Assembly (NCBI GenBank): GCA_018268465.1
Contig: JAFDWN010000013.1
Location: 19,377-83,376, forward strand
DNA length: 64,000 nt
Source of the DNA: Actinomycetota bacterium
Lineage (GTDB): Bacteria; Actinomycetota; Actinomycetes; Mycobacteriales; Mycobacteriaceae
Direction of reading: 5' to 3'
The position numbers were made by a program, and so were the translations under genes. The stretch's first letter is position 1. Each line of letters starts with the position of its first letter. Positions 15,318-62,964 of this stretch are shown here, piece by piece. Below the pieces are notes generated by a model, which saw nothing but the letters and a program-made list of their open reading frames with translations, was not told the origin of the DNA and made no database searches.

Positions 15318-15569
15318 ATGAACTACCTCAACCAGGTGCTCCTGAACACCATCACTCAGGGCAAGACCACCATCATCCTGGTCATCACACTGGTGGCCCT
15401 GGGCCTCATCGCCCTGCTCTACGCCAAGCACCACGGCTCGATCACCAAAGTGATCGTGGTCGTCGCCAGCGCCATCGGCGCAGTGATCATCGTCGTCATC
15501 CTCCCGGACCTGCTGCGCGGTTCGGCCAGTGATACCGGCGGACTCACCGGTATCACCAGCCGCTACTGA
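15318..15569 (+). CDS. small two-helix membrane protein of the T4SS operon
   Basis: 83 aa with an excellent ribosome-binding site (AAAAGGAGGG, 6 nt upstream). Two transmembrane helices: TTIILVITLVALGLIALLYA and ITKVIVVVASAIGAVIIVVI, with a short basic loop between, and a short Gly/Thr tail. Size, topology and position resemble VirB2/TrbC-type pilins or small channel subunits of actinobacterial T4SS, but there is no cleavable leader, so the pilin role is only a guess. Confidence 0.85.
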   Translation: MNYLNQVLLNTITQGKTTIILVITLVALGLIALLYAKHHGSITKVIVVVASAIGAVIIVVILPDLLRGSASDTGGLTGITSRY

Positions 15570-15610
15570 TACCCGACATAGGCCCCAGAGGCCCGATAAG
15601 GACGGACCGC

Positions 15611-16063
15611 ATGAGCTCCGAAGAGTCATCCCGCGGCAACGTGGACGTTGCCGAACGCCGGGAACCGCCCATCTTCGTCACCATCTACACCCTTGCGCGC
15701 AAATTCCCGAAACTGATCGGGAAATTCCCGAACGGACAACCCATCCCGTTCGGGCCGTTCACACGCATCCAGTGCGGCGTCCTGGTCGCATCGGCCGGGC
15801 TCATTCTCCTGGTGTTCAAGCTGTTGGACCCGCCGATCCTGCCCACACTGTTCGTCGGAGCTGCGATCACAATCCCGTCGGTCATCCTGGCTCGCCGAAT
15901 CGGGTTCTCCATGGCCCGCACCAGTTCACGACTGATCTGGCTGGTGCGACCCCGCCTGTACCGCGCCGCGTTGAGCACCGGAGGCCGCCCACCGCGCAAA
16001 CACCAGCGGCCCGCCACCACCGGAATGAGCGACCACGCCCTGGACCTCGAGTTCCTGCGATGA
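15611..16063 (+). CDS. tcpE: TcpE-like conjugal transfer membrane protein
   Basis: 150 aa. Pattern typical of TcpE/PrgI-like proteins: a short cytoplasmic N-terminus, LIGKFPNGQPIPFGPFT, then two adjacent transmembrane helices (about 52-70 and 75-92), and a basic tail. In Gram-positive T4SS this family works with TcpF/VirB4 at the membrane. Its stop overlaps the VirB4 start by ATGA (16060-16063), so the two are made together. Confidence 0.8.
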   Translation: MSSEESSRGNVDVAERREPPIFVTIYTLARKFPKLIGKFPNGQPIPFGPFTRIQCGVLVASAGLILLVFKLLDPPILPTLFVGAAITIPSVILARRIGFSMARTSSRLIWLVRPRLYRAALSTGGRPPRKHQRPATTGMSDHALDLEFLR

Positions 16064-18621
16064 TCGTGACCCTGCAACAACCCACCCTGGCGGTGACCGA
16101 CAACCTGCGCTGGACCCGAAGCGGAGTCGTCTACGCCGAATGGCTGCTCGCAGCGCTGCCGAACGGGCACGAGGAACGCAGCGAGAAAACCCGGATCGAC
16201 AACCAACACCGGCACCTGTTCTCCGACCTCGGCACGACGATTCTGACCAGCGTGGTGGCACCGATCGCCATCCCAACGATTGCCGAGAAGATCACCTCCT
16301 CGGCACGGCGGGCCGCGCACCGCTACGCGGCCGCCCACCGCGCCGCTTCCACTCCCCCACCACGAAGCGACTTCCTAACGCTGTTTCCCGACGCCGCGAT
16401 CGAAGCCTCCGCACGGCTCGCCGAGATCGAAACACAGGATCCGCCGCCGGCCGAGCGCCTGCACTGGTTGTCAGTCCCGCTGTGCGGCCCCGCCCGCGGC
16501 GGAGACCTCCCCGACGGCTACCAGCCCACCGCCAAAGATGTCCAAGCCTTCACCACGCTCGCCGCCGACACTCAGCGCAAAATCCCCGGGATCTTCCGAC
16601 CCCAACGCGTCAGCGAGCACCAGATGCACTGGCTTTGGGAGCGCAGCCACACCCGTGGCGTCGACTACCGCGCATACCTCAAGGCGCTCAACGGTTCCGA
16701 ACCCAATCCTTCGGCCCCACGGCCTTTCCCCCACCGCGCCGCCAGCGCGCACTCAGTCCGCCGGCGCCGCGGCTTTCGGCTCGACGGAGAACTGGACCCA
16801 CGGCTCTCACGCGCAGTCAAGGTCGGATTTCCCGACAGCGACATTCCCCCGAGCTACCAAACATTCCTGCTCGTCGACGACTACCCAGCCAAGCTGGCCT
16901 GGCCAGGCGTCGCCGACCAAGTGTTCGCGCTACTCAATCACTTCGAGGGCACCGGTGTCGACTACACCCTGCACACCTGGGTCCGCAACCGCGCCGACGC
17001 CCTCGCACACAACGCGAGCTCGCTCAAGCAGCTGGCCGAGCAGATGGACGAACGCGACAGTGAAGTGAGCTTCGCGCAGAACTTCCTCGTCACACGCGGC
17101 CAGCAGCTCGCCCAATACAACACCCACCTGGAAGCCAATCCGGCCGAGACCGAAATCCACTTCTGCCCGATCATCGCAGTGTCCGCCCCCAGCTACGAGG
17201 AACTGCGCGACCGCGTCCAAGACGTCCACCGCACATTCAAAGACATCCCCATCAAGCTCGTCGACCCCGCCGGCGCCCAAGAAGAAGCCTGGGCCGCCTG
17301 CCAACCCGGGTACGCCCCCCAGCGAGTGACCGCTGACTACACCCATGTCACCGCCACCGACAACTTCTCCAAGTTCACACCGATCACCGCGGCCAAGATC
17401 GGCGACGACGCCGGGCCCTGCATCGGCGAATGCCGGCTATCCGGGTTCCACGAACCGGTCTACTTCGATCTGCTCGGCGTCACGGAGAAAAACAAATCCG
17501 CCAGCTTCGCGTTGGTCGGCGACCTCGGCTCCGGCAAGTCGGTGCTGCTGAAAGTCTTCGGCGGCCTCACCGTCGACCACGGCGGCCAGGTGTTCGCCAT
17601 CGACCGCTCCCCTATGGGCGAGTACGTGTCATTCGCCGAATCCGTAGCCAACGCGGTCGTCATCGATCCGACCAACCCCCAGTACACCCTGGACCTGCTG
17701 CGGGTGGTGCCCGGCGCCGACGTCGCCGAACGCATCCTGCCCGTCCTCATGCGCCTCTTCCAGATCAAATCGGGCAGCCCCGAATCCACCCTGCTGTCTG
17801 ACCTCATTGAGCCGAACTACCGGGCACGCCACAAGATCAAGGGCCTACCCGAACTCGTCACCCACACCGCCAACCTGGTCCGCAACCCGAGCCTGGCCAC
17901 CGGAGCCGTCGCCGATGCCCCTCCCGCGGTGATCGCGAAAGTCGCCTCCCAACTCCGGTTCTGGTCGCAACGCACCTACGCCCGTGTCCTGTTCGCCAAC
18001 GACCTGCCACCGCTGCCACTGGACGCCCCGTTCGTGGTGCTGCGCACCAACAGACTCTCGCTGCCCGAGGAGAAGAGCAGCCTCGCCGACGATCCCACCA
18101 AACTCTTCGGCGACGTCATCTACACACTGTTCGCCACCATCGCCCGGCAGGTACTGTTCTCAGAGCCCGACGACCCCAATCCTCGCTTCGGACTGTTCCT
18201 GCTCGACGAAGCCCGCCATCTGACCCGGTCGGCCATCGGGGACGGGATCATCGAGGACTTCGTCATCGACGGCCGCAAACACGACTGCGCGATCGGGCTG
18301 GCCTCCCAAGATCCCGCGCACTTCCGACGGTTCACCTACCTCATCCCGACCCTGTTCCTGTTCCGCCAGGTCGACGAAACGCTCGCCACCGAGGAACTAC
18401 GGATGGCCAGCAAGGACGCCGCCCGCGACCGAAACCTGGTCAAGCAACTGATGACCGACACAAGCCCCGGGACCGGCGAAGACGGCGAAACACCTCCCGA
18501 GCGGCGCGGCGAATGCCTGATGAAAGACATCCGCGGCCGCCTCGTCGAGATCAAAATCAAACTCCCGGCCCGCGGCGAGCGCGCCGCCGCGGTGAGCACG
18601 ACCCCGGGAGCAGCCGCATGA
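16060..18621 (+). CDS. virB4: VirB4-family T4SS ATPase
   Basis: 853 aa from ATG 16060 (ATGA overlap with TcpE). Residues 1-430 form the VirB4 N-terminal region; the C-terminal half is a RecA-like motor with Walker A VGDLGSGKSVLL near 487-498, Walker B FGLFLLDEARHL near 711-722, and a late DIRGRLVEIKIKLP end. VirB4 is the universal, hexameric energiser of conjugative T4SS. Around residues 308-328 it carries NASSLKQLAEQMDERD, a segment also found in a small orphan gene at 57861. Operon with TcpC and TcpE upstream, VirB6-like downstream. Confidence 0.95.
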   Translation: MIVTLQQPTLAVTDNLRWTRSGVVYAEWLLAALPNGHEERSEKTRIDNQHRHLFSDLGTTILTSVVAPIAIPTIAEKITSSARRAAHRYAAAHRAASTPPPRSDFLTLFPDAAIEASARLAEIETQDPPPAERLHWLSVPLCGPARGGDLPDGYQPTAKDVQAFTTLAADTQRKIPGIFRPQRVSEHQMHWLWERSHTRGVDYRAYLKALNGSEPNPSAPRPFPHRAASAHSVRRRRGFRLDGELDPRLSRAVKVGFPDSDIPPSYQTFLLVDDYPAKLAWPGVADQVFALLNHFEGTGVDYTLHTWVRNRADALAHNASSLKQLAEQMDERDSEVSFAQNFLVTRGQQLAQYNTHLEANPAETEIHFCPIIAVSAPSYEELRDRVQDVHRTFKDIPIKLVDPAGAQEEAWAACQPGYAPQRVTADYTHVTATDNFSKFTPITAAKIGDDAGPCIGECRLSGFHEPVYFDLLGVTEKNKSASFALVGDLGSGKSVLLKVFGGLTVDHGGQVFAIDRSPMGEYVSFAESVANAVVIDPTNPQYTLDLLRVVPGADVAERILPVLMRLFQIKSGSPESTLLSDLIEPNYRARHKIKGLPELVTHTANLVRNPSLATGAVADAPPAVIAKVASQLRFWSQRTYARVLFANDLPPLPLDAPFVVLRTNRLSLPEEKSSLADDPTKLFGDVIYTLFATIARQVLFSEPDDPNPRFGLFLLDEARHLTRSAIGDGIIEDFVIDGRKHDCAIGLASQDPAHFRRFTYLIPTLFLFRQVDETLATEELRMASKDAARDRNLVKQLMTDTSPGTGEDGETPPERRGECLMKDIRGRLVEIKIKLPARGERAAAVSTTPGAAA

Positions 18622-24485: not shown

Positions 24486-24698
24486 GTGAGATCACCGCTG
24501 TTCGTTCGCCTCGCCGCCGTCGCCAACTCGCCGCGTCCGCGGCCTAAGCCGGTCCGCGAATTCCACGTGCCCGCAGAGCAGCTCCCCCAGCAGGTTCTTG
24601 ACCGGTTGCGCCACCCCAGTGCGCCTACCTACGTGGTGACCTGGGACCGCACCGCCCGTGACGCCGTTTTTCGACCCAGCGAGGTTCATCTGAGGTGA
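24486..24698 (+). CDS. small protein preceding the coupling ATPase
   Basis: 70 aa from GTG 24486; the frame is open upstream but the conserved promoter box places transcription start at this codon. Basic N-terminus, then VREFHVPAEQLPQQVLDRLR and TYVVTWDRTARDAVF. No family recognised. The stop overlaps the ATPase start by GTGA, so it is translationally coupled to it and may be an accessory subunit of the coupling protein. Confidence 0.7.
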   Translation: MRSPLFVRLAAVANSPRPRPKPVREFHVPAEQLPQQVLDRLRHPSAPTYVVTWDRTARDAVFRPSEVHLR

Positions 24699-26965
24699 CG
24701 AGCGGCCAAACGCGCAAGACAGCGGACGAGGAGGAGAACCCCGCAGCTGTGCTGCTGGGCGTCCTGGTCATCGTCGGTGGTGCCGGCTACCTCGGGTACC
24801 GGTACCTCGGCAAGAACACCAACCTGCTGACCTCCGTGGACATCCCGACCGCGGCCGCGGTCATCGGCGCGACCCTCATTGCCGTCGTCAGCGCGGGCAT
24901 CGTGTGGCACGGCGCACGTCCCGGCGAGCCGTCCTTGACCGAGCCTGAAAAGTGGTCGCTGACACTGCCGGTGGTCCCGGCGACCATCGGCACCGCATCC
25001 GCGGCGTTCTCAGCGACAACCGCCGTCGCCCGATGGCTTCTCGCGATGCCCTTCGTCACTGCGGTTGGTATCGCCCTGGCCGCCGGCTGCGCCACCGCCG
25101 GTTTCACGATCGAGCCCTACCGTCTGCGGTGCGCCCGCCTGCAATTACGCAGCACCCTGATCCAGGCGCTATACGCTCCGCTCGGCCACAAGCAACCTTC
25201 AGTGCAGGTCGTGCCTACCGCGAAATGGGACGCCAAATCCACAGTGCCCCAGTGCATCACCATCCGGGCGAGCCGCCCGATGACAGCCATACTGCCCTCA
25301 AGCGACGATCGGCTCGAACTCGATGACGGCATCGGCACAACGACCACCACCGCGCGACGCCCCGATCCCGCCACCACGATCCGACGCGCCCTGCGCACCC
25401 ATTGCGACGCCCACTATCGCGTCAGCGCCGACCCTTCCGCGCTGGTATTCACCGCCACACAGTTCGTACCCGAGCAGATGGATGAGGAGCTCGCCGACCT
25501 CACCCGCAAGGCCCGCGACATCTTCGAATCCTCCGCCGCCGTGACAGGAACCCTCGCTGAAGGGTTCACCATCAAGCACGCGATCGCCAAGAAACTGATG
25601 GGCGACTTCCGCAAGCGGGTCGCCGAACAGAACCTCACCGAACTTGTTGGTGGCACTTGGCGGGTCAAATGGGACATGCCGGCATCGACTGTGACGTTCA
25701 CCCCCAAACCGGTGCTGCCCTTCCCGCTCTTCACCAAGCCTATTCCGGCTGTCCGGACGATCGAGGAAGCGATCGGCCAATACCGCCAGACACGTTTCGC
25801 CTACGGTGTCGACCTCGACCTGGGCATCCAGGAATGGGATCCACTGGACTCACCCCACACTCTCGTCAGCGGAAAAACCGGCGCCGGCAAGACGGTCTAT
25901 CTCCGCGGACTCATCATGATGGCCGCGCTGCGCGGCTGGGCCGTGGTTCTCGTCGACTTCAAAGGCGGCTCGTACTCCGACTTCGTGGGCTGGCCGAACG
26001 TGCACATCATCAGCAGCGACCCGTTCGAATCGATCGCCACCATCCACCGTATGTACATGCTGATGGAGGACCGCAACGCGCGCGCTCGCTGGGACCAATC
26101 GCAATGGGAACACAACCTTCCATACCTCATCGTCGTCGACGAGGCCGCCCAGTTCAAAGTTGTACTCGAACGGCTGTGGGCCAACCTGAAACCGAAGAAC
26201 GGTGCCAAGGAATGCCCGACATTGACCGAGCTCGGCGAACTGGCTCGTCTGGCGCGCACCGCGCGGATGCACCTTGTGGTCGGTATGCAGCGGCCGGACC
26301 ACACTCTCATCGACACTGAGGCCCGCGACAACTTCGGCAATCGCGTATCGGTCGGCCCGATATCACGGATCGCGGCCGAAATGCTCTGGGACGACAGCTA
26401 TGTCGGCCGCTACATTCCCCGGATCAAGGGTCGCGGCATGTCCACGGGCACGCACCAAGATCCACGGGAGACCCAGTATTACTTCACGCCAGCGGCCAAC
26501 AGCACGGTCCCTGAGGAGGCGGCCGTCATCGAACAACTCCGGCCCCCCGTGGCGCTTGTCCCCCGGTACGTGCCGGAGTTACCGCTGATGCTCGACGGGA
26601 TTTCGTGGAACGAGATCGCGGATGCGCCGTGGTTCCCGCTGTCGGAGCGGCCCGATCTCGATCCCACCAACTTCTTCCGGAAAGTCACTTCATTCGAAGG
26701 CGATTCACGCCTCGGCTTCGATGTCGCTGAGATCATCCGCGAAGCCGAAAACGAGCCTCTGGAAGAACTGGTGTTGGCGCCTCGGGAGCTGCAGCCCAAG
26801 GATGTTGTGTCCTTCGACGACGGGCATGTCGGTGAGGTCGACGGCATTGATATCGCCGACGATGGCGTGGTCACGGTGATGTGGCAGGACGAATCTGACG
26901 GCCGCCTGTGCGTGTCTAGCTTGTCTCCGACTAGCCGTCTGGCAGTACAACGCAACTTCTCTTGA
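24695..26965 (+). CDS. tcpA: FtsK/SpoIIIE-type coupling ATPase (TcpA-like)
   Basis: 756 aa from GTG 24695. N-terminus with four hydrophobic helices (about 20-38, 48-70, 90-110, 115-135), a linker domain, then an FtsK-type motor: Walker A VSGKTGAGKTVYL near 390-402, Walker B PYLIVVDEAAQF near 478-489, and RTARMHLVVGMQRPD. The C-terminal 60 residues form a separate beta-rich tail. TcpA-type proteins couple DNA substrate to the T4SS or pump double-stranded DNA. Architecture also resembles ESX EccC, but only one ATPase domain is present. It follows VirB4 and VirB6, so T4SS coupling is most likely. Confidence 0.9.
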   Translation: MTSGQTRKTADEEENPAAVLLGVLVIVGGAGYLGYRYLGKNTNLLTSVDIPTAAAVIGATLIAVVSAGIVWHGARPGEPSLTEPEKWSLTLPVVPATIGTASAAFSATTAVARWLLAMPFVTAVGIALAAGCATAGFTIEPYRLRCARLQLRSTLIQALYAPLGHKQPSVQVVPTAKWDAKSTVPQCITIRASRPMTAILPSSDDRLELDDGIGTTTTTARRPDPATTIRRALRTHCDAHYRVSADPSALVFTATQFVPEQMDEELADLTRKARDIFESSAAVTGTLAEGFTIKHAIAKKLMGDFRKRVAEQNLTELVGGTWRVKWDMPASTVTFTPKPVLPFPLFTKPIPAVRTIEEAIGQYRQTRFAYGVDLDLGIQEWDPLDSPHTLVSGKTGAGKTVYLRGLIMMAALRGWAVVLVDFKGGSYSDFVGWPNVHIISSDPFESIATIHRMYMLMEDRNARARWDQSQWEHNLPYLIVVDEAAQFKVVLERLWANLKPKNGAKECPTLTELGELARLARTARMHLVVGMQRPDHTLIDTEARDNFGNRVSVGPISRIAAEMLWDDSYVGRYIPRIKGRGMSTGTHQDPRETQYYFTPAANSTVPEEAAVIEQLRPPVALVPRYVPELPLMLDGISWNEIADAPWFPLSERPDLDPTNFFRKVTSFEGDSRLGFDVAEIIREAENEPLEELVLAPRELQPKDVVSFDDGHVGEVDGIDIADDGVVTVMWQDESDGRLCVSSLSPTSRLAVQRNFS

Positions 26966-27000: not shown

Positions 27001-27723
27001 GTGATGGGCGCGAAGACTGAGAACCAGCAGCTGCGGGCGGAGAAACGCCGGCAGCGTCAACGTGCCCGGGTTGAGCGGCGCCGCGGCGATCATGCGCTTG
27101 TTCCGGTGGCAGTTGCGCAACGACTTGGCATCTGGGTTGCGACACTCGCTGATGCGATGCGGCAGGCGGGCATCACGACTGCGATCACCGAGACGCAAGC
27201 ACAGCGGTGGACGGCGGATCCCGAATCCGCACCCGAGTGGTTGATGCAGTTGCGTGGCGAACGTCTGGCTGCTGCCGCCCAGGCCGAATACCGGCGTCAA
27301 CGAGAGGTCGACCGTCAAGAATTCCGTGAACTCGCTGCTGAGCAATCCGCGCTGGCGAAGGTGCAAGCGGGTAAGCGGCGGTTCAATGATGACGAGTGGG
27401 TGTGGGTGCAGGACTGGGCATTCCGCGCGGTCAAAGACCTGGTGCGCGGCTGGAACGAGTTCGAGGTCACCGATTTCGACCGGCAAGTATTGCAAGCGGT
27501 CGGCGTGGACGCCGAGAACCATCAGAGCTGGCCTGTTCATGCCGGTGGATGTGACGGTGCGGGCCCCGAGCGCTGCGCGGTGAGGGTCCAGCAGATGCGG
27601 ACCGAACGCAGGACGGATGCACTGATCGACTCGGTGGCCAAAGAAACCGCGCTGCGCGATTTGGCTCTGTGGCCGGGGCAGTTCGTCACCACGTGGCACG
27701 GCGCACGTGTGGGGTGGTGGTGA
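27001..27723 (+). CDS. hypothetical protein, first gene of the TnpB-like operon
   Basis: 240 aa (GTG 27001 or ATG 27004; AAGGA upstream). Highly basic N-terminus (KRRQRQRARVERRR), then a helix-turn-helix-like segment VAVAQRLGIWVATLADAMR, a long charged helix, and a C-terminal half with VWVQDWAFRAVKDLVRGW and Cys residues (CDGAGPERCAV). Probably nucleic-acid binding. No named family recognised. Its stop overlaps the next start (GTGA at 27720), and the pair is coupled to the TnpB-like gene, suggesting a three-part machine. Confidence 0.75.
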   Translation: MMGAKTENQQLRAEKRRQRQRARVERRRGDHALVPVAVAQRLGIWVATLADAMRQAGITTAITETQAQRWTADPESAPEWLMQLRGERLAAAAQAEYRRQREVDRQEFRELAAEQSALAKVQAGKRRFNDDEWVWVQDWAFRAVKDLVRGWNEFEVTDFDRQVLQAVGVDAENHQSWPVHAGGCDGAGPERCAVRVQQMRTERRTDALIDSVAKETALRDLALWPGQFVTTWHGARVGWW

Positions 27724-28022
27724 AGGTCAACAAGGTGACCGTCAAGGTCCGCATGGTCGGTGGCCGCGCTGACCGCAACGGCGTGATCGAGAAGAACCTG
27801 GATCCGCGCTACGTCGAACGCGCTGCACCCTCGCTGCGCACGCCACCACAATCGGGTGCCGAGGTGGTGGTGCGTGACCACGGCGGCCACCTCCGCCGGG
27901 CGCAGGTTGTCGAGGTGGACGGCCCGTTGTTCGAGGCGACGTTCTCGTTGAAGTCCGGGCAGTGGCGCAGTGGATGGTTCGACCTGGCCGCAATCGAACC
28001 GTCCGAGGTGAATTCGCTATGA
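27720..28022 (+). CDS. small beta-rich protein, second gene of the TnpB-like operon
   Basis: 100 aa from GTG 27720, selected for its 4-bp overlap with the previous stop. Sequence is strand-rich and basic (VKVNKVTVKVRMVGGRADRN ... QSGAEVVVRDHGGHLRRAQV) and ends in an AAIEPSEV tail, like an SH3/OB-type small barrel. No family recognised. Overlaps the TnpB-like start (ATGA at 28019). Possibly an accessory subunit or translation-coupled regulator. Confidence 0.7.
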   Translation: MKVNKVTVKVRMVGGRADRNGVIEKNLDPRYVERAAPSLRTPPQSGAEVVVRDHGGHLRRAQVVEVDGPLFEATFSLKSGQWRSGWFDLAAIEPSEVNSL

Positions 28023-29635
28023 GTGGCTTGCGAACGATCGCCGCACCGTTTGTTGCTGATTCGGCGACAGGGGTGTGTATCCGCACTCGGTTGAAAGGAC
28101 TCACCGTCACGGATCTGTCGGTGTTGCGGTCGGTGGGTGAACACCTGGGTCGGCTCGCCGCAAGCGATCTCGCCAAGCGGGTCGCTGACGGGCTCGACCA
28201 CGACAACGAGGCGTGGGCAGACCGTAAACGCGACATCACGGCAGCCGCTACATCGCGGTGGGCGGGTGCCATCACCAAGTCCACCCACGATCAGTGGGCC
28301 TTGGCGCGGCGGGCGCAGGCCGCCCACATCGGGTCGTTGCGTGACGGAGTGGCGATGGTCGAACACCGGTTATCGCTGCCGCTCGGCGCCAAAGGTACCG
28401 GCGGTATGCCGGGCGGATACCGCTCCCGGCACGAGTGGTTCGTCAAATCCCGCAGGCTCGCAACCCTGCAACAGCGGCTGGCCCGTGTGGAGGCCGACTA
28501 CGCGGCGGGGAGAATGAGCGTGGTGCGGGGCGGAAAACAGTTGCTGCACAAGCGGCATCACCTTGAGGATGCGGGTCTGACCCAAGACCAGTGGCGAGCC
28601 CAGTGGGAGTCGTCGCGTTGGTTTCTGTCCGCTGATGGTGAGGCCGGCAAGAAGTACGGCAACGAAACGATCCGCGTCAGCGTCGACGGCCAGGTCTCCA
28701 TCCGGCTACCCGGGTCGATGGTCCATCTCGCGAACGCTCCGCATCACCGCTACATCCTCACCGGCACGGTGGTGTTCGCGCACCGCGGCGACGAATGGTC
28801 CGACCGGGTAGCAGCCAATCATGCCGTCGCCTACCGCATCCACTACCACCCCGACCGCGACCGCTGGTATCTGGACGCGTCCTGGCAAAGCACAACTGTC
28901 CCGACCGTGCCCCTGGAGGTGTTGCGCGCGGGTGAGGTGGTCGGGGTGGACATGAACGCCGACCACCTCGCCGCCTGGCGGCTGGATCCACACGGCAACC
29001 CGATCAGCGCCCCACGCACCTTCGGATACCAGCTCGACGGCAGCAGCGGACACCGTGACGCTCAGGTCAGACACGCTCTCACCCAGTTGCTGCACTGGGC
29101 GAAACACAACGGAGTCAAGGCCATTGCGGTAGAAGATCTCGACTTCACCGACTCCAAGACCCGTGAGAAGCACGGCCGCCGGCTCCGGTTCCGCCAGGTT
29201 ATCTCCGGCATGCCCACTGGTCGATTGCGCGCCCGACTGTTGGCGATGGCCACCGAGGCCGGAGTCGCCATCATCGCGGTCGACCCCGCCTATACCTCGA
29301 AATGGGGTGCGCAGCACTGGCAGAAACCACTGGCTGCCGCCCATCCACAAACCACCCGTCACCACGCTGCGAGCGTGGCGATCGGAAGGCGCGCCCTCGG
29401 GCACCGGATCCGGCGACGGACGGCACCGCCCCGGCCACACCAGAGCGATGTGGCCGGGCATCGGACCGGCCAGGCCAGATCCTCCACCCGTCGGCGCGAG
29501 GAAACCCGCCACCCCGAGGCTGGATCCCGGACACGATCCGCGCAACCACCCGGACAAACGAACGCGGGGGCCCAGGCGACCCAACACCGTTCGAGGCCGC
29601 CCACCGAGCAGAACTTACTCCCGCTCAGTGTTTAG
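28019..29635 (+). CDS. TnpB/Cas12-like RuvC-fold protein with altered third motif and no zinc finger
   Basis: 538 aa from ATG 28019. The C-terminal half carries a TnpB-type RuvC domain: motif I VVGVDMNADHLA (Asp311), motif II AIAVEDLDF (Glu372), then VDPAYTSKWGAQHWQ, which aligns with the TnpB VDPAYTSQxCSxCG block but has lost its Cys residues. Where TnpB has DxNAA, this protein has RHHAASVAIGRR (His448-His449). The tail beyond 465 is Arg/Pro-rich. The N-terminal 300 residues are long for TnpB and contain helical segments (ATLQQRLARVEADYAAGRM). TnpB-related proteins of this kind occur in actinobacteria; their function is not established. There is no TnpA next to it and no CRISPR array seen. 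Confidence 0.85.
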   Translation: MSGLRTIAAPFVADSATGVCIRTRLKGLTVTDLSVLRSVGEHLGRLAASDLAKRVADGLDHDNEAWADRKRDITAAATSRWAGAITKSTHDQWALARRAQAAHIGSLRDGVAMVEHRLSLPLGAKGTGGMPGGYRSRHEWFVKSRRLATLQQRLARVEADYAAGRMSVVRGGKQLLHKRHHLEDAGLTQDQWRAQWESSRWFLSADGEAGKKYGNETIRVSVDGQVSIRLPGSMVHLANAPHHRYILTGTVVFAHRGDEWSDRVAANHAVAYRIHYHPDRDRWYLDASWQSTTVPTVPLEVLRAGEVVGVDMNADHLAAWRLDPHGNPISAPRTFGYQLDGSSGHRDAQVRHALTQLLHWAKHNGVKAIAVEDLDFTDSKTREKHGRRLRFRQVISGMPTGRLRARLLAMATEAGVAIIAVDPAYTSKWGAQHWQKPLAAAHPQTTRHHAASVAIGRRALGHRIRRRTAPPRPHQSDVAGHRTGQARSSTRRREETRHPEAGSRTRSAQPPGQTNAGAQATQHRSRPPTEQNLLPLSV

Positions 29636-29840
29636 GAACGGTATGGAAGAACTGGTGTGGTGTGGCAAGACTGTTTCCCGCTCCGCAGACAGGCGAAGGG
29701 AGGCCGGCGTGCAGCCAAAGCCCCCCGGCCGAGCCCGCCTGCTCCTCCTTCTGTAACCGGACACTTTGCACGGATTGGTTTGCACAGCTTACGATCTCGC
29801 TGCGCATTCGAGTGAATTGTCGGAGAATTGGCTATCCGGC

Positions 29841-61692: not shown

Positions 61693-62964
61693 ATGTTGAC
61701 GGGCAGGCGGTTTCGAGTCGAGTTCACCGTCGAACAAGCCGAATACGCGGAGCGGATCGGCGCGGCATGCCGGGCGGTGTGGAACACCGGGCTGGAGCAG
61801 CGTCGTGAGTACCGGCGCCGCGGGGCGTGGATGAACTATCAACCGCAGGCCAAGGAGTTGGCCGAGGCCAAGGCCGAGCAGACGTGGCTGAAAGACGTCC
61901 CCGGGCATTGTCTGCAGCAGACGTTGATGGATCTGGACAAGGCTTGCCGCGAGCACGGCACCTTTCGGGTGCACTGGCGCTGCGGCCGGCGGTGGGCGCC
62001 GTCGTTCCGGTTCCCCGAAGGCGACAAGATGACGCTGGAGAAGCTCAACCGCCGCCACGGCCGGGTGAAGCTCCCGAAGCTGGGGTGGGTGAAGTTCCGC
62101 CAGACGCGCAGCTTGGATGGTGAAACCATCCGCTCGGCGACCCTCACGAAAGACGGGCCGCATTGGTATGTCTCGCTGCTGGTCGACGACGGGATCGACG
62201 CTCCGACTGTCCACGCTGCACCGGATACCGCGGTGGGGGTGGACCGGGGCGTGGTGGTGGCGGTAGCCACCAGCGGCGGCGAGCTACTCGACCGACCATT
62301 TGTCACCGCCGGTGAGCAACGCCGTGTCGCGGCGTTGCAGCGCAAGCTGTCCCGGGCTGTGAAGGGGTCGGCCAACCGCGCTAAGACCCGGGCGGCCCTG
62401 GCCGGGCTGCGGGCGCGTGAGCGCCACCGCCGGCAGGACTTCTGCCAGAAGACCGCCCACCAACTCGCGCACGCCAACGCCGTGGTCGTGCTGGAGCAGC
62501 TACCGGCCAAGAACATGACCCGCCGGGCCAAGCCCGCCCCGGATCTGAACAACCCGGGCCGGTATCTGCCCAACGGGGCCACCGCGAAATCGGGCCTGAA
62601 CAAGGCCATCTTGTCGAAAGGATGGCACCAGTTCGAGCTGGCATTGACATCTGTGTCCCGTTATAGCGGGACACAGGTGGTGAAAGTTCCGGCAGCGTAC
62701 ACGTCGCAACGCTGCTCGGCGTGTGGGCATGTGGACCCGAAATCCCGTGAGAGCCAAGCGGTATTCCGGTGCACCCACTGCTCGCGTCCTGCCGAGCACG
62801 CGGATGTGAACGCCGCCAAGAATATATTGGCCGCAGGGCTTGCGGTCACCGCCTGCCGAGAATCGGTGGCACCTGTGGGTGTTGCCGAGACGTCGAAGCA
62901 GGAACCAGCAGGAACCCGTAAGGAATTACTGCTCCAACCCCGCCACTCCGCTCCCGCGGCGTGA
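61693..62964 (+). CDS. tnpB: RNA-guided nuclease TnpB
   Basis: 423 aa from ATG 61693. Complete RuvC: motif I AVGVDRGVVVAVA (Asp184), motif II VVLEQLPAKNM (Glu268), zinc finger TSQRCSACG ... CTHC, and motif III HADVNAAKNILA (Asp371). N-terminal RFRVEFTVEQAEYAERIGAA and RAVWNTGLEQRREY are standard. TnpB uses a right-end RNA to cut DNA and preserve the element. All catalytic residues are intact, unlike the TnpB-like protein at 28019. Confidence 0.95.
   Translation: MLTGRRFRVEFTVEQAEYAERIGAACRAVWNTGLEQRREYRRRGAWMNYQPQAKELAEAKAEQTWLKDVPGHCLQQTLMDLDKACREHGTFRVHWRCGRRWAPSFRFPEGDKMTLEKLNRRHGRVKLPKLGWVKFRQTRSLDGETIRSATLTKDGPHWYVSLLVDDGIDAPTVHAAPDTAVGVDRGVVVAVATSGGELLDRPFVTAGEQRRVAALQRKLSRAVKGSANRAKTRAALAGLRARERHRRQDFCQKTAHQLAHANAVVVLEQLPAKNMTRRAKPAPDLNNPGRYLPNGATAKSGLNKAILSKGWHQFELALTSVSRYSGTQVVKVPAAYTSQRCSACGHVDPKSRESQAVFRCTHCSRPAEHADVNAAKNILAAGLAVTACRESVAPVGVAETSKQEPAGTRKELLLQPRHSAPAA

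Follow-up and report, generated by a model that had tools for sequence, protein, structure and literature searches.

We analysed a gene coding for a 538-residue TnpB-like protein in a 64,000-nucleotide stretch (hereafter the window) of contig JAFDWN010000013.1 from an Actinomycetota bacterium of the family Mycobacteriaceae. By its sequence the protein belongs to an actinobacterial lineage of IS607-type TnpB proteins. We consider the locus likely to be a stranded tnpB half from an IS607-type insertion sequence (IS), encoding an RNA-guided TnpB variant that lacks the zinc finger, carries an Asp-Glu-His (D-E-H) RuvC site and is maintained by purifying selection. Because the gene retains a well-conserved structured RNA at its end, its product probably still works as an RNA-guided DNA nuclease or binder.

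The RuvC site and the missing zinc finger

The initial annotation of this DNA had described a TnpB-like protein with Asp311 and Glu372 in RuvC motifs I and II, the sequence RHHAAS (His448 and His449) at motif III, and no Cys4 finger next to a retained VDPAYTS block. The translated frame agreed with this description in each respect, Cys20 being the sole cysteine, so that the Cys4 finger found between motifs II and III of canonical TnpBs is absent. Weak TnpB-type scores were obtained with TIGR01766 (29.5, cut-off 32) and with the Pfam TNB domain (18, cut-off 26.3).

Relatives were collected by a pattern scan of a species-genome collection, which gave 194 encoding loci, and the best 80 of these were analysed. 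Four of the 80 have no open reading frame (ORF) of at least 480 residues, and none of the ORFs in the other 76 holds a CxxC..CxxC pair. After de-duplication, 61 of 71 protein sequences, the window included, were aligned, ten being omitted by hand (L045, L055, L056, L058, L069, L070, L072, L074, L075 and L080); adding ten distant relatives to the 61 gave an active-site alignment of 71 rows. Asp311, Asn313, Glu372, His448, Ala451, Ile455, Arg457 and Arg458 are invariant in all 71 rows. The finger-less, His-containing pattern is not a chance feature of one gene, because it recurs in the relatives (no CxxC pair in any of 76, the triad in 71/71). Position 449 varies (Asp in 50 rows, His in 8, Gln in 7, Glu in 4, Ala and Arg in one each), and His449 was therefore rejected as a key residue. 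Seven of nine further loci reach motif III and all seven carry D311, E372 and H448, L165 and L166 stopping short of it; one of these seven, L163, coincides with L090 of the 71 rows.

For comparison we used 18 canonical TnpBs of the same order, selected out of 30 fetched loci for a zinc finger and a DxNAA-type motif, the remaining 12 being unused. When whole proteins were aligned in two MAFFT modes, His448 fell on the catalytic Asp in 18/18, Arg447 on the Arg of DRD in 14/18, and residues 450-452 on NAA. A profile-profile alignment by hhalign against the full-length canonical proteins extended over motifs I and II and ended before motif III; with the fingers cut out, it opened a long gap before motif III and placed residue 449 opposite the x of DxNAA. 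From the MAFFT and hhalign alignments together with the invariance in 71/71 rows, the D-E-D of TnpB most likely corresponds to D-E-H in this lineage, the first two acids being kept and the third place being taken by His448. The earlier proposal of a His as third metal ligand thus stands as a sequence register, at His448 and not His449, and in that place His448 may act as a metal ligand. A conserved His near the third motif is used by Thermus thermophilus RuvC and by Cas9. The invariance of the triad in mobile elements favours an active site that is in use, and this site may cleave DNA.

The same region was also read in more distant branches. A second branch (L085, L087, L089, L090, L092 and L096) comes from plasmids and genomes of mycobacteria and is 43-47% identical; its motif III reads VHHGAA in 4/6 members and AHHGAA or AHHAAA in the others, and in L089 and L090 an IS607 transposase (TnpA) gene is adjacent. 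A branch from Streptomyces and Kitasatospora (L011, L012, L016 and L054) reads RHQAA, with Gln beside the invariant His. Single-protein searches of viral contigs found no relative; a profile search found one on an IMG/VR viral contig (L103:3001-4008, 26% identity), and since it carries TVHQGAA the His motif extends to more distant proteins.

Distribution of the family and its link to IS607

The best 80 loci come from Streptomyces, Mycobacterium, Kribbella, Kitasatospora, Nonomuraea, Micromonospora, Actinomadura, Nocardiopsis and Actinacidiphila. The plasmid search covered 72,556 records and gave 35 that matched the protein at E <= 1e-5, 22 of them covering at least 80% of the query, and the weakest of these matches are distant TnpB-type proteins of other genera. 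A match was found at E <= 1e-30 in 10 of 396 genomes of a phylum sample and at E <= 1e-20 in 7 of 100 related genomes, the genome of the window being counted in both. Judged from these samples, the family is patchy yet widespread.

Mycobacterium sp. SM1 carries five copies of a 2,364-bp unit, 99.2-99.7% identical and with differing flanks, one of them at a contig end. The unit encodes a 207-residue IS607 family transposase (NF033518, 185.5 bits, cut-off 110; Resolvase domain, PF00239) followed by a TnpB-like gene with the identical RHHAAS motif. Units of about 1.85 kb that hold no TnpA are repeated within Streptomyces genomes, with six copies in one strain that are 84-89% alike. Among the 75 loci with at least 700 bp of upstream DNA, TnpA was found within 150 bp in 26 and was not detectable in 49; the lack of an adjacent TnpA, which the initial annotation had noticed at the window gene, was confirmed there and is common in the family. 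The right end of the element was found in 73 of the 80 loci; 71 of the 73 end in GGAACGGT, and the flanks beyond differ.

Boundaries of the window copy and selection on its proteins

The nearest relative of the TnpB-like protein, with 81% identity, is encoded by plasmid pTY66_01. Around the right end, the two DNAs agree in 55/60 bases up to position 29642 and in 15/60 beyond it, and the end itself, which lies at the 3' end of the gene as in IS607 elements, has 0 mismatches to the family motif. On the left, the similarity stops inside a 100-residue ORF that precedes the TnpB-like gene, of which about codon 18 onwards is common to both. The genome of the window holds a single copy of the TnpB-like gene, and no TnpA was found there at E <= 1e-5 (46 candidates scored); pTY66 has three partial or distant TnpA matches elsewhere (one of 57% over 110 residues, two at 34%). 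In the tree, the window and pTY66 copies are sisters (support 0.985), joined next by SM1 (0.998) and then by Kribbella L008 (0.696); TnpA is present in SM1 and absent from Kribbella L008 and many others.

Between the window and pTY66, nonsynonymous and synonymous divergence (dN and dS) were 0.12 and 0.91 in codons 1-440 of the TnpB-like gene (dN/dS about 0.13), and 0.10 and 0.17 in codons 441-538. For codons 18-99 of the 100-residue ORF they were 0.17 and 0.69, so that this ORF is probably a real coding sequence. As dN lies well under dS in both genes, both proteins are under constraint, and the fall of dS from 0.91 to 0.17 shows an extra constraint on synonymous sites at the end of the TnpB-like gene.

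A conserved structured RNA overlapping the end of the gene

The codon-entropy ratio, calculated over the 61 aligned sequences in 20-codon bins, ranged from 0.58 to 1.01 up to codon 460 and from 0.29 to 0.42 in the next four bins. We then aligned 69 of 79 right-end sequences, dropping L083 (which is the window), L085 and eight near-duplicates, and RNAalifold predicted 32 base pairs in this region, 19 of them with compensatory changes. The structure that was scored has 30 pairs, made of 23 of the predicted ones and of seven pairs of a pseudoknot; five of the nine pairs left out would occupy the same last bases as the pseudoknot. In this structure 19 of the 30 pairs show compensatory change, 96.3% of the cells are paired and the covariation score is 0.345, against 0.096 (standard deviation 0.006) for shuffled and at most 0.102 for slid controls, both of which flatter the structure somewhat, since shuffling ignores relatedness and the hairpins were drawn from the same alignment. 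Eleven single pairs of the two hairpins, A and B, have both sides changed in 9 to 39 sequences, and the helices are also kept in the window copy. All seven pseudoknot pairs can form in 59/69 sequences and six in the other 10; the pseudoknot hardly varies and so gives no proof by covariation. The RNA had no match in Rfam up to E 1, and no second copy was found in the genome of the window (next best match, E 0.009 over 32 bases).

According to two studies of IS607 TnpBs, the scaffold ends at the right end of the element, the flank is the guide, and a pseudoknot matters (PMC10711439; PMC11061315). The layout at the window gene, that of an OMEGA system with a structured 3' scaffold and the flank as guide, is the one described there. 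At the level of sequence features, the covarying 3' RNA and the exact right-end/flank junction at 29642/29643 support the earlier suggestion of a possibly RNA-guided protein, which would bind this RNA and use the flank as guide.

Putative guide and target motif

For the SM1 copy L007, uninterrupted sites were found in 4 of 147 other genomes searched. Two of the four alignments show a single gap of exactly GGGT between the left flank and the guide; the other two place their gaps differently, yet have GGGGT in the same stretch. This indicates a GGGT target at this one SM1 insertion, which would be of the IS607 kind, into a GG-type site and with no target duplication, and we assumed the same motif for the window copy. 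Earlier work gives (G)GG as the preferred target of IS607 (PMC6188088) and AGGAG as the motif with which the ISFba1 TnpB was studied (PMC11061315).

Positions 2-16 of the putative window guide recur, with 15 of 16 bases, at 26759-26774 inside the coding sequence of an FtsK-type gene, 2.9 kb upstream of the guide and about 240 bp before the first of the three genes. Nowhere else in the genome is there a second site with up to two mismatches over 16 nucleotides. The site has no GGGT, 7 out of 300 16-mers drawn at random from the window matched a second site in it equally well, and the guide of pTY66 has no comparable self-match at one mismatch; being near chance, it was kept as an unexplained observation only. 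Matches of the guide in two phage and two plasmid records (E 0.6 to 6, unrelated hosts) were taken as chance.

The two upstream genes and their surroundings

The TnpB-like gene had been presented as the last gene of a three-gene operon, following genes for a basic protein of 240 residues and for the 100-residue protein. The 4-bp overlaps are as described (GTGA at 27720 and ATGA at 28019), and the family scans gave no convincing family for either upstream protein. Conservation of the three-gene order in other plasmids was looked for and not found. The 240-residue gene has no relative among the 72,556 plasmid records or the 395 further genomes of the genus that were searched, and it is outside the stretch common with pTY66. 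Relatives of the 100-residue gene occur only on the TY66 and TY81 plasmids (two of the plasmid records); in the 396 genus genomes, its own included, only itself, the TY81 genome and one match in G007 were found, the last being rejected as chance since the strand opposite to it encodes a glycine/asparagine-rich repeat protein. Neither gene was detected at E <= 1e-4 in any of the 80 loci, a few of which hold little upstream DNA. As the 240-residue gene has no relatives in the collections searched and the pTY66 similarity begins within the 100-residue gene, the three genes were rejected as a unit. The features of the locus are collected in Table 1.

Upstream of the cassette lie AAA_10 (15529-18621) and FtsK/SpoIIIE (24695-26965) domains, which suggests a conjugation gene cluster. 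In pTY66, too, the cassette follows a cluster of secretion genes (AAA ATPase, eccB and a hypothetical gene). The window holds a second, canonical TnpB gene (61693-62964, 32 kb away; TNB, OrfB_IS605 and HTH domains), and contig C47 of this genome carries a further canonical TnpB.

Table 1 Features of the TnpB-like locus (positions in the window)
Feature	Positions	Strand	Basis or remark
Gene for 240-residue basic protein	27001..27723	+	ORF; gene of the host replicon, outside the conserved unit
100-residue ORF coupled to the TnpB-like gene	27720..28022	+	First ~17 codons outside the stretch common with pTY66
Stretch common with pTY66_01, 80% DNA identity	27770..29642	+	blastn; unrelated DNA on both sides
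538-residue TnpB-like protein, IS607-type lineage, without zinc finger	28019..29635	+	ORF, family scans, alignments
RuvC motif I, Asp311	28949..28951	+	71/71 rows; on canonical Asp in 18/18
RuvC motif II, Glu372	29132..29134	+	71/71 rows; on canonical Glu in 18/18
RuvC motif III, His448 where DxNAA has the catalytic Asp	29360..29362	+	71/71 rows; on Asp 18/18 in two of three alignments
Proposed omegaRNA/reRNA scaffold, ~245 bases, overlapping the 3' end of the gene	29398..29642	+	Codon-entropy drop, dS 0.17 vs 0.91, covariation; 5' end approximate
Hairpin A	29418..29471	+	Covariation
Hairpin B	29575..29601	+	Covariation; pairing of loop 29586-29592 with 29636-29642 possible (7-bp pseudoknot)
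Putative guide (flanking DNA), assumed ~20 nucleotides	29643..29662	+	Similarity among relatives ends at 29642

Alternative explanations

Several results speak against a stranded but functional IS607-type TnpB. The NCBIfam model guided_TnpB (NF040570) gave 46.3 bits, below its cut-off of 100. A third MAFFT run, with the fingers cut out, misaligned motif III and did not place His448 on the Asp, and the 18 canonical TnpBs had been preselected for the very finger and DxNAA-type motif with which the protein was compared. In SM1 the TnpA gene has an in-frame stop in 2/5 copies. No recognisable IS607 left end was found upstream in the window (8-15-bp matches, E >= 0.11), nor was a GGGT-flanked target for the window guide. 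RNAalifold, which cannot draw pseudoknots, pairs the last bases with a conserved upstream stretch (columns 124-128) instead of the pseudoknot loop, each pair in at least 67/69 sequences. Finally, Cas12m2 is described as having a His-containing site that binds without cutting (PMC10442227). This last precedent lends itself to a nuclease-dead RNA-guided DNA binder of the TldR or Cas12m kind, as the initial annotation had also envisaged, which would serve as a regulator or silencer on a plasmid and for which the exchange of Asp for His would have been the inactivating step. The exchange itself, a protein under purifying selection in a genome with no TnpA match, and the recurrence of the guide in the FtsK-type gene would all suit such a binder. 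The other two acids of the triad are invariant in all 71 rows, and RHHAAS also occurs in SM1, in near-identical copies accompanied by a TnpA gene; the upstream match has the weaknesses given above (no GGGT, random 16-mers as good, none in pTY66). As the triad invariance and the dN/dS of about 0.13 argue for a retained active site, we hold a dead binder to be rather unlikely, and keep it as a rival.

That the gene is a decaying IS relic without present function would agree with the absence of TnpA and of the left end, and with a gene in single copy whose RNA has no second copy beyond short matches; the intact 538-residue frame, its low dN/dS and the preserved RNA helices make this the least probable explanation. 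Hardly more credible is a multi-gene plasmid defence or regulatory system, with the 100-residue (and the 240-residue) protein as partner of the RNA-guided one: the two plasmid lineages known both show the 4-bp overlap of the 100-residue and TnpB-like genes, and the small gene is under constraint, but these are only two lineages, the 240-residue gene is not conserved, and neither gene was detected at any of the 80 loci. The plasmid-defence role proposed earlier found no evidence, PADLOC giving weak Cas12f scores only.

Proposed mechanism and comparison with known systems

If the locus is a stranded IS607-type tnpB half, it would sit on a mycobacterial plasmid or integrated conjugative element and would have lost, or never carried, the serine transposase and the canonical left end. 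The transcript of the gene would be cut or trimmed into the scaffold of about 245 nucleotides (about 29398-29642) with the guide from 29643 on. The TnpB-like protein would bind this RNA, and the complex would scan DNA for GGGT-like motifs and test the adjoining bases with the guide, after which the RuvC site D311-E372-H448 would cut or tightly hold the target. In the parent elements, such a complex would act at the emptied donor site, protecting the element or restoring it there.

Compared with the IS607-family ISs and TnpBs of ISXfa1 (PMC10711439) and ISFba1 (PMC11061315), the system is alike in the serine transposase beside the gene in some relatives, the GG-type target indicated at one SM1 insertion, the right-end RNA followed by the flank, and the RuvC residues D311 and E372. 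It differs in having no finger, an invariant His for the third Asp and an RNA without Rfam match, and the window copy has no transposase beside it. The Fanzor-related TnpBs of IS607 elements likewise form a lineage with an unusual active-site arrangement, but have their glutamate moved and keep the finger (PMC10711439); here the glutamate falls on that of canonical TnpBs, the change is in the third acid and the finger has been lost. Cas12m2, which is TnpB-related, mycobacterial and has a His in its RuvC triad, is described as CRISPR-associated and with the His in place of the first Asp (His-Asp-Asp; PMC10442227). No CRISPR array was found at the locus: between 24 and 34 kb of the window there is no direct-repeat family of at least 20 bp with copies within 120 bp. 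The resemblance to TldR lies in a TnpB-derived and possibly exapted protein whose guide RNA adjoins its gene. In known TldR proteins the RuvC acids are lost and the guide is directed to a promoter, whereas here two acids and the His are invariant. By title and beginning of abstract, no description of this TnpB lineage was found in the literature; most subscription papers were out of reach, and novelty is therefore provisional.

Biological significance

More tentatively, one may think of an actinobacterial lineage of finger-less, D-E-H, RNA-guided TnpB nucleases with its own scaffold of about 245 nucleotides, in which one mycobacterial plasmid branch would have swapped its transposase for a coupled 100-residue partner and persisted as a two-gene guided cassette; taken as a whole, we regard this picture as possible though doubtful. 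TnpB is the ancestor of Cas12. A natural lineage that is conserved, mobile and finger-less and has His at the third catalytic position would make it possible to test what DNA cutting requires of the RuvC site, and would supply a new compact RNA-guided protein together with a new scaffold RNA. The window copy would also offer a clean test of whether selection can keep a TnpB after its transposase has been lost.

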